This document shows, piece by piece, positions 18,817 to 20,676 of a stretch of DNA of 64,000 nt (position 1 is the stretch's first letter; every line of letters begins with the position of its first letter). Under the pieces are notes generated by a model that ran no database searches, had not been told where the DNA came from, and was given only the letters and a program-made list of their open reading frames with translations. A program made the translations under genes and the position numbers. The DNA lies in contig NZ_LGKN01000005.1 of the NCBI RefSeq assembly GCF_001306175.1, forward strand, positions 62,001-126,000, given 5' to 3'. The stretch comes from Ardenticatena maritima (GTDB lineage: Bacteria; Chloroflexota; Anaerolineae; Ardenticatenales; Ardenticatenaceae).

Positions 18817-18840
18817 GAAAGTCAACGTCCACTAGCACAC

Positions 18841-18872
18841 AACACCTCGCCGATGGCGGGGTGTTGTTGTTT
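18841..18872 (+). terminator. Thioredoxin terminator
   Basis: The hairpin AACACCTCGCC / GGCGGGGTGTT (one G-T pair) with a GAT loop is followed by a T-rich tract (GTTGTTTCCCC). It ends the trxA transcript. Confidence 0.8.
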
Positions 18873-19128
18873 CCCCTCGTCAAAAGCATCATCTCACCAA
18901 TTTTCCTTCATTTTTCACCAAAAATTCACTACTCAAATGTCTGTTTTGGTGATGAAATTGTCGCGAGGAAAGTGTATATTCATGCTACGAGTCGTCTGAA
19001 GAAAAATGCTCGCCGTGATGATCTGTGATGATGAACCAATCTTGAGAACATACCTTAGTATTTGGTCTTGCGAGTACACCTCAAAAACTTCCCTTGAAAA
19101 TGCAAAATTATCCGCTTGGACAAAACAA
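18873..19128. other. AT-rich intergenic region upstream of the CRISPR-linked regulator
   Basis: No gene is visible in this stretch. It contains a 9-bp inverted repeat (TCACCAAAA at 18915-18923 and TTTTGGTGA at 18944-18952) and short TGATGATC/TGATGATG repeats. No CRISPR repeat-spacer pattern and no clear sigma70 promoter were found, although the promoter of the CRISPR regulatory genes probably lies here. Confidence 0.5.
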
Positions 19129-19191
19129 TTGTTGCAAATCCTGCAACAAGGCACCTCTACAGTGGGAGCAAATCCCACTTAATGGAGGTGC
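19129..19191 (+). promoter_or_regulatory. Structured 5' leader that sequesters the ribosome binding site of the small regulator
   Basis: Two consecutive hairpins precede the winged-helix gene. The first is TTGTTGCA / TGCAACAA around AATCC (19129-19149). The second is nested: outer arms GCACCTC (19151-19157) and GAGGTGC (19185-19191) enclose AGTGGGA / TCCCACT (19161-19179). The outer right arm contains most of the GGAGG ribosome site (19184-19188), so folding should hide it from the ribosome. Whether it is a protein-binding site, a thermosensor or a ligand switch cannot be told from the sequence. Confidence 0.6.
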
Positions 19192-19195
19192 TCTC

Positions 19196-19411
19196 ATGGC
19201 CTTCTGGAAGTGCAAACAAAAGGAGTTCGAGAAGACGATTCGCATCATCAAAGAAAACCCCGGTATCCGTCCTGCGGAGTTGGCTCGCAAACTGGGTGTT
19301 TCACGCTCCACAGTGATCCGCCGATTACCAGCATTGGAAGAAGCAGGGTTCCTTCTTTATGAAGACGAACGAGGAGGCTTATATCCCTACCGCAAAGGAA
19401 AGGAAAAGTGA
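19196..19411 (+). CDS. Small winged-helix DNA-binding protein next to the CRISPR operon
   Basis: A 71-residue protein consisting almost entirely of a winged helix-turn-helix (IRPAELARKLGVSRSTVIRRLPALEEAG) followed by a short wing (YEDERGGLYPY). The ATG at 19196 has GGAGG 7 nt upstream; the frame stays open further left but that would run through the structured leader. It lies on the same strand as the WYL regulator and cas genes and is probably a repressor acting on itself or on the cas promoter, which is inference. Confidence 0.75.
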   Translation: MAFWKCKQKEFEKTIRIIKENPGIRPAELARKLGVSRSTVIRRLPALEEAGFLLYEDERGGLYPYRKGKEK

Positions 19412-19483: not shown

Positions 19484-19626
19484 AACACAACGATTGCAAC
19501 CAGATGCACAGGTTTGGACGAATTCGCCGCAAATTTTTGAAAAAGTGCTCTCTTGTTGCGGGATTTTACCTACACATGTGATAAAGTGTTACAAACCGCT
19601 ACATACATGATATGAGGGCTACCACA

Positions 19627-20676
19627 ATGGAAAAGATCGAGGGAAAAGCCACGCGCCTGGAGCAAATGATTTACATTCTCCTCGCCTATCCGGAAGGACT
19701 TACCCGAGCGGAAATTGCGCGTCGTTTGGGGGTTCATCGTTCCACAGTGGCACGATATGTCCATGACTTGGAACAGTTGGGCATCCCCATTTGGATAGAC
19801 GGACAACGCGTTGGCATCAACTCTGACGCGTATCAGATAAAAGTGGGCGTGACCATTCATGAAGCCACAGCCATACATTTGGCCGCACGCCTCATGGCAA
19901 CACGCATGGACGAGCGAAACCCACATGCAGCCAGTGCCCTGCGCAAGCTGGGCCACGAGTTACGTATCCTCGCGCCCCATGTGAGCCGCCACCTCCTTCT
20001 TTCTGCCGAGGTAATAGAAGCACAAGCACAACGTCAAGACCCTGTTTTTATCACCATTTTGGAAACGCTCACTCGTGCCTGGTCCCAAGGGCGCAAGGTA
20101 AAAGTATGGCACTGGCATGAGAAAACAAATCGGGTTTATGAATATCTGCTCTCTCCCTATTTTCTCGAACCCTATGCAGTAGGGCGGACAATCCATGTGA
20201 TCGGATTTCGTGAGCCACCGGGGGCTATCCGCACGCTGAAAGTAGAACGTATTCGACGCGCCGAAATTACGGCAACACCCTACACCATCCCCCACGATTT
20301 CGACCCCCGCAATCTGCTGCGCGATGCGTGGGGTATCTGGTACACCGAAGAAGAACCAGTAGAGGTTATTTTACGCTTTCATCCACGTGTGGCTCACAGA
20401 GTGAAAGAAACGCGCTGGCATCCATCTGAACACCTGGAAGAACAACCCAATGGTGCGCTCATCTGGCGGGCGCGGGTGGCTGAGCCGCAAGAAATGCTCC
20501 CCTGGATTCGCGGTTGGGGTGCAGATGTTGAGGTGCTAGCTCCCGAGGAATTGCGCCTGACCCTCATTCGTGAAGCGAAAGCGTTGGCGCGCTTATATGG
20601 CGTTGCGTCAGAACCAACACCCGATGACCCTGACTACGACCAAAAACGTTTCCAGCAACTCTTTGATACGGAGTAA
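19627..20676 (+). CDS. WYL-type HTH transcriptional regulator of the CRISPR-Cas operon
   Basis: A 349-residue regulator with an N-terminal DeoR/HTH_11 winged helix (LTRAEIARRLGVHRSTVARYVHDLEQLGI, about residues 22-55) and a WYL-like ligand-binding region (about 158-215), followed by a C-terminal WCX-like extension. The ATG at 19627 has GAGGG 8 nt upstream; an in-frame ATG at 19612 lacks a site. The stop is 4 nt before the cas3 ATG, so it is cotranscribed with the cas genes. WYL proteins are known regulators of several CRISPR systems; autoregulation of this operon is the simplest inference. Confidence 0.88.
   Translation: MEKIEGKATRLEQMIYILLAYPEGLTRAEIARRLGVHRSTVARYVHDLEQLGIPIWIDGQRVGINSDAYQIKVGVTIHEATAIHLAARLMATRMDERNPHAASALRKLGHELRILAPHVSRHLLLSAEVIEAQAQRQDPVFITILETLTRAWSQGRKVKVWHWHEKTNRVYEYLLSPYFLEPYAVGRTIHVIGFREPPGAIRTLKVERIRRAEITATPYTIPHDFDPRNLLRDAWGIWYTEEEPVEVILRFHPRVAHRVKETRWHPSEHLEEQPNGALIWRARVAEPQEMLPWIRGWGADVEVLAPEELRLTLIREAKALARLYGVASEPTPDDPDYDQKRFQQLFDTE

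Follow-up and report, generated by a model that had tools for sequence, protein, structure and literature searches.

A conserved folded leader with an internal predicted promoter before a small winged-helix gene at WYL-associated CRISPR loci of Chloroflexota

The window is a 64,000-nt stretch of Ardenticatena maritima contig NZ_LGKN01000005.1, and all coordinates are positions in it. The following features were located around a small winged-helix (wHTH) gene and its leader.

19129-19149, + strand: hairpin 1, TTGTTGCA-AATCC-TGCAACAA, containing the palindrome TTGTTGC-N7-GCAACAA; interpreted as the WYL regulator's operator in DNA, at about -41 to -21
19150-19167, + strand: left arm of hairpin 2 (outer part 19150-19159, inner part 19161-19167), supported by the folds and by the comparison of own with swapped arms
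19158-19163, + strand: predicted -10 element TACAGT, within the hairpin 2 left arm and exactly 10 nt after GCAAC
19170, + strand: predicted transcription start (+1), A19170, in the apical loop of hairpin 2, with YA at -1/+1; placed from the sequence
19173-19192, + strand: right arm of hairpin 2 (inner part 19173-19179, outer part 19183-19192), supported by the cost of opening the Shine-Dalgarno (SD) sequence
19196-19411, + strand: small winged-helix gene, 71 aa, Pfam HTH_24
19554-19587, + strand: putative WYL/cas promoter, with the half-site TGTTGC at 19554-19559, then 22 nt, then the -10 element TAAAGT at 19582-19587
19627-20676, + strand: wHTH-WYL-WCX regulator with BrxR/CapW-like domain order at the head of the cas operon (Pfam HTH_11, WYL and WCX; PADLOC WYL and WYL-bearing Cas3 model)

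By its Pfam domains the regulator at 19627-20676 is of the wHTH-WYL-WCX type, and it stands beside a defence operon in which PADLOC identified Cas3, Cas8a, Cas7, Cas5a, Cas6 and Cas1 of type I-A; likely Cas2 and Cas4 reading frames lie behind the Cas3-to-Cas1 genes. Over 58 aa the small wHTH protein is 41% identical to the N-terminal DNA-binding domain of this adjacent regulator. No CRISPR array was found by tandem-repeat search of the window or by direct-repeat search of 19000-40000, despite the apparently complete type I-A cas operon, and CRISPR repeats were rejected on that ground as a source of the leader motif. Upstream of the leader, after the thioredoxin gene (trxA), a terminator-like GC hairpin followed by TTGTTT lies at 18840-18866; given this hairpin between trxA and the promoter, read-through at the window locus may be low.

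A preliminary description, made from the sequence, had placed two hairpins before a 71-residue, CRISPR-linked winged-helix gene and proposed that pairing hides the gene's ribosome site. This much was borne out: the hairpins lie at those places, the product matches Pfam HTH_24, and the WYL regulator and the type I-A cas operon follow. Hairpin 2 is a nested stem spanning 19150-19192 with the apical loop GCAAA at 19168-19172, and the SD sequence GGAGG (19184-19188) lies in its right outer arm ahead of the ATG at 19196. The 141 nt of 19100-19240 folded at -51 kcal/mol, against -31.6 +/- 3.8 kcal/mol for dinucleotide shuffles (z -5.1), none of the 200 shuffles being as good. A search of Rfam gave no match at the leader, the window yielding only tmRNA and 5S rRNA. 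The leader stretch is single-copy in its own genome. The palindrome GTTGC-N7-GCAAC by itself occurs there in 25 copies and is not rare, so the significance of hairpin 1 comes from its homologues.

About 80 homologues of the small wHTH protein were obtained in Chloroflexota by protein searches among relatives, in the class and in the phylum, and nearly all are followed directly by a WYL gene; no relative was found among viral contigs. In many Chloroflexota (L138, L139, L142, L131 and many others) the WYL regulator and Cas3 form one protein of about 1000-1290 aa, and these fusion genes stand behind the small wHTH gene or behind the palindrome. Two homologues, L100 and L120 (genomes G378 and G210), carry an in-frame stop, with a near-perfect leader hairpin kept in L100. 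A set of 76 distinct wHTH leaders from Chloroflexota was aligned on the hairpin 1 palindrome.

Across these 76 leaders TGTTGC-N7-GCAACA is near-invariant. WYL genes without a small wHTH gene have the full palindrome, the ten-nt spacer and the -10 element directly upstream, so the palindrome follows the WYL regulator. A palindromic site that overlaps the promoter and goes with the WYL gene was found both before WYL-only genes and before wHTH genes beside WYL. Since its sequence is conserved and it goes with the neighbouring regulator, hairpin 1 is best read not as an RNA hairpin but as the putative DNA operator of a BrxR/CapW-like WYL regulator, acting as double-stranded DNA. Its stem hardly varies in sequence and hence offers little covariation evidence for RNA. 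At pair 5/11, which flanks the centre, G.T was seen in 13 of the 76 leaders and A.C in none; this could hint at RNA pairing in hairpin 1 too, though the same G.T bias is also common in WYL-only operators.

Downstream of the palindrome the leaders share the consensus [TC]A-NNN-T-G at a fixed distance. The -10 element always stands 10 nt past GCAAC, with A at -11 in all 76 leaders and T at -7 in 73 of 76. YA falls exactly at -1/+1 at a fixed distance from the -10 element, the A being present in 63/76 leaders, and several WYL-only promoters that have no hairpin carry CAAA at the +1 place. The distance from TGTTGC to the -10 element is 22 nt in both the wHTH and the WYL/cas promoters. The architecture of the latter was found in 50 of the 80 candidate loci scanned, the spacing being exactly 22 in 42 of the 50, and it comes without hairpin 2. 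The WYL/cas promoter has only the left half-site TGTTGC where it stands beside a small wHTH gene, and the full palindrome where that gene is lacking. This suggests that the wHTH gene arose when the WYL promoter and DNA-binding domain were partly duplicated.

Because the predicted +1 lies in the apical loop and the -10 element in the left arm, the native wHTH mRNA should lack the left arm, which should occur only in read-through RNA. This bears on the further proposal of the preliminary description, that both hairpins are part of the normal mRNA, which starts upstream and is translated on unfolding by temperature, a protein or a ligand. A start inside the stem that removes the left arm had been named there as evidence to the contrary, and the predicted start at A19170 agrees with it. 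A strong fold, an SD sequence in the right arm and the compensatory changes reported below are what such an mRNA would be expected to have. The conserved -10 element and +1 sit inside the fold, however, and WYL-only loci use the same promoter without it; neither an unfolding element nor a ligand pocket was seen to be conserved, loops differ in size and stems in register, and an opening cost of 15-24 kcal/mol in read-through RNA of the window and its nearest relatives would make a poor thermometer. We regard conditional unfolding of the normal mRNA as very improbable; of the preliminary description as a whole, the SD hiding, the conserved pairing and the CRISPR link stand.

The cost of opening the SD sequence was computed from folding energies at 37 °C. 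The median was 11.2 kcal/mol in read-through RNA and 4.1 kcal/mol in RNA beginning at the predicted +1, and the cost was higher in read-through RNA for 69 of 70 leaders; the gene in the window gave 15.3 and 6.9 kcal/mol, respectively. The cost falls only once the start of the RNA passes the left arm. For comparison, opening took 4.0 kcal/mol at ordinary genes of the same sequences, only 2 of 182 reaching 11, and 3.6 kcal/mol at cas promoters of the same loci. In the computed folds, then, the SD sequence pairs upstream of the predicted native start and is free in the native RNA. With the high cost confined to RNA started upstream, it is in read-through RNA alone that the fold makes a difference.

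Hairpin 2 goes with the wHTH gene, and selection acts on it. In the wHTH leaders the arms paired with their own partners at a mean of -20.9 kcal/mol and with swapped partners at -13.1 kcal/mol (z -19). The covariation across homologues that the preliminary description had suggested looking for was found: in a sequence alignment that ignored structure, 61 cells were changed on both sides, compared with 34.6 in shuffles, so that pairing is kept by compensatory change, and the covariation score of hairpin 2 was 0.184 against 0.135 in shuffles. Leaders of WYL-only genes, with the same operator and promoter, lack hairpin 2: own versus swapped arms gave z -1.0 (p 0.16), and opening the SD sequence took 4.9 kcal/mol in read-through RNA and 4.0 kcal/mol in native RNA. 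The folded leader is real and ancient.

The form of hairpin 2 varies a great deal. It spans 36-62 nt with loops of 3-28 nt, and its register shifts with the SD sequence still covered. RNAalifold run on the full alignment gave hairpin 1 only and no single consensus for hairpin 2, since the register varies. Hairpin 2 shows no constant half-site sequence or spacing, its spans, loops and sequences all varying, and such variability would be easier to reconcile with a constraint on RNA than with a fixed operator or protein site. The counts of G.U and A.C mismatches in the stems, 52 and 29, seemed to differ significantly but came to 16 and 14 after the -10 and SD positions were removed; with these constrained positions excluded, the asymmetry was discarded as evidence for RNA over DNA.

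The arms might instead have no role and be what remains of a palindromic insertion or of DNA able to form cruciforms. Hairpin 2 is indeed weak or absent in a minority of leaders (L118, L125, L128 and others), and a decayed copy exists in L033. The double compensatory changes are not what leftovers should show, however, nor is SD burial that is kept in new registers and, in L075, with an enlarged loop; nor is the dependence on neighbour orientation described below. This is the least credible of the explanations weighed here. The decayed copy, at L033:1501-1588, is a leader with hairpin 2 mispaired, followed by MAFWNRKSS and then by apparently noncoding sequence; it is a remnant of a wHTH gene.

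Stronger burial where read-through is expected was set as a test of a lock against read-through transcripts, and it was observed. Using our own gene calling, by codon usage, the burial added in read-through RNA came to 8.4 kcal/mol where the upstream gene is co-directional (n=33) and 4.0 kcal/mol where it is divergent (n=30; p 3e-4). The effect held at all the score and distance thresholds applied (p never above 0.004). Corrected for the protein tree, on which orientation changes about 25 times, it was 3.45 +/- 0.91 kcal/mol (p 2e-4). A cruder gene calling, in which several neighbours were misassigned, trxA of the window among them, gave p 0.016. Dependence on orientation is not predicted by a thermometer, a riboswitch or a DNA operator.

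The same result bears on a reading of hairpin 2 as a DNA inverted repeat, the operator across the -10 element and +1 at which a small wHTH dimer represses its own gene and which travels with that gene as its own site. Hairpin 2 does not occur without the wHTH gene, in many leaders its dyad has its centre near +1, where repressors commonly bind, and the G.U test is compatible with a role in DNA. Yet the arm sequences differ widely, almost all lengths between 36 and 62 nt occur among the spans, loops measure 3-28 nt, registers and bulges are variable, and the SD sequence goes on being covered throughout; stronger burial with a co-directional upstream gene is likewise unexpected for an operator. 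An autorepression site is considered unlikely.

The best explanation, which we hold to be probable, is an operator and promoter combined with a fold-back translation lock against read-through transcripts. As conservation suggests, the neighbouring wHTH-WYL-WCX regulator would bind TGTTGC-N7-GCAACA as DNA at about -40 to -22 and control transcription, most likely as a repressor, its site overlapping the -35 region. RNA polymerase directed by TACAGT would start at A19170, again on the strength of conservation, and produce a 26-nt leader in which the SD sequence is accessible. Transcripts arriving from upstream would carry the left arm, so that hairpin 2 would fold and bury the SD sequence, as computed. 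Production of the small regulator would thus be restricted to the promoter of its own that WYL controls. The compensatory change, the WYL-only control and the dependence on upstream orientation support selection for SD burial. As for the product, its 41% identity to the WYL DNA-binding domain leads us to guess that it probably acts on the same TGTTGC boxes, sharing them or competing for them with the WYL regulator.

In a wider sense, we lean towards the view that CRISPR loci across Chloroflexota contain a small regulator which looks like a separated copy of the WYL DNA-binding domain and whose translation is possible from no promoter but its own, controlled by WYL, and that the lock is selected up or down by the read-through potential of the neighbour. 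If this is true, the lock would amount to a read-through insulator that is widespread, tuned to orientation and located outside transposons, and chromosomal regulators, beyond transposases, would also be shielded from accidental read-through expression by a lock tuned to the direction of the neighbour. For a large family of type I CRISPR loci under WYL control, on whose regulation no study was found in the literature searched, the analysis predicts an operator (TGTTGC-N7-GCAACA), a promoter and a start site. Where a strong conserved fold covers a ribosome site, a riboswitch or thermometer is not the only possible reading, and a promoter inside the fold is the first thing to check for.

Among known systems, BrxR of Acinetobacter binds a pseudo-palindrome at about -51 to -27 that overlaps its own promoter, with the start 23 bp before the gene, and a stem-loop of 70 bp, tipped by the palindrome, was predicted there as well (PMC9122589). 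The BrxR of pEFER binds inverted repeats and represses (PMC9122601). As in BrxR and CapW, a wHTH-WYL-WCX protein heads a defence operon here and has a palindromic putative operator over its own promoter. Unlike that of BrxR, the putative operator is TGTTGC-N7-GCAACA at about -40 to -22 and often serves an extra small free-standing wHTH gene, and only in this small gene does an RNA fold lie over the SD sequence. The PADLOC models for CasR and Csa3, which are CARF-wHTH proteins, match the winged helix weakly, but the small wHTH protein has no CARF domain and is only 71 aa long. As in thermometers and riboswitches that hide the SD sequence, the SD sequence is paired in the folded RNA; unlike in these, the predicted native mRNA lacks the fold and there is no conserved ligand or melting element and no Rfam family. 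In IS10/Tn10 and IS50, a fold-back blocks translation of the transposase in read-through transcripts. In IS200, one stem-loop stops impinging transcripts and another hides the ribosome site (PMC3196728). The leader described here resembles IS10 and IS50 in that sequence upstream of the predicted native start pairs with the ribosome site and would block transcripts from outside promoters. It differs from IS10, IS50 and IS200 in that the gene under protection encodes a winged-helix regulator in the chromosome next to cas genes and not the transposase of a mobile element, and from the transposase fold-backs in that the arm contains the gene's own predicted -10 element and the strength of the fold tracks the orientation of the upstream gene.
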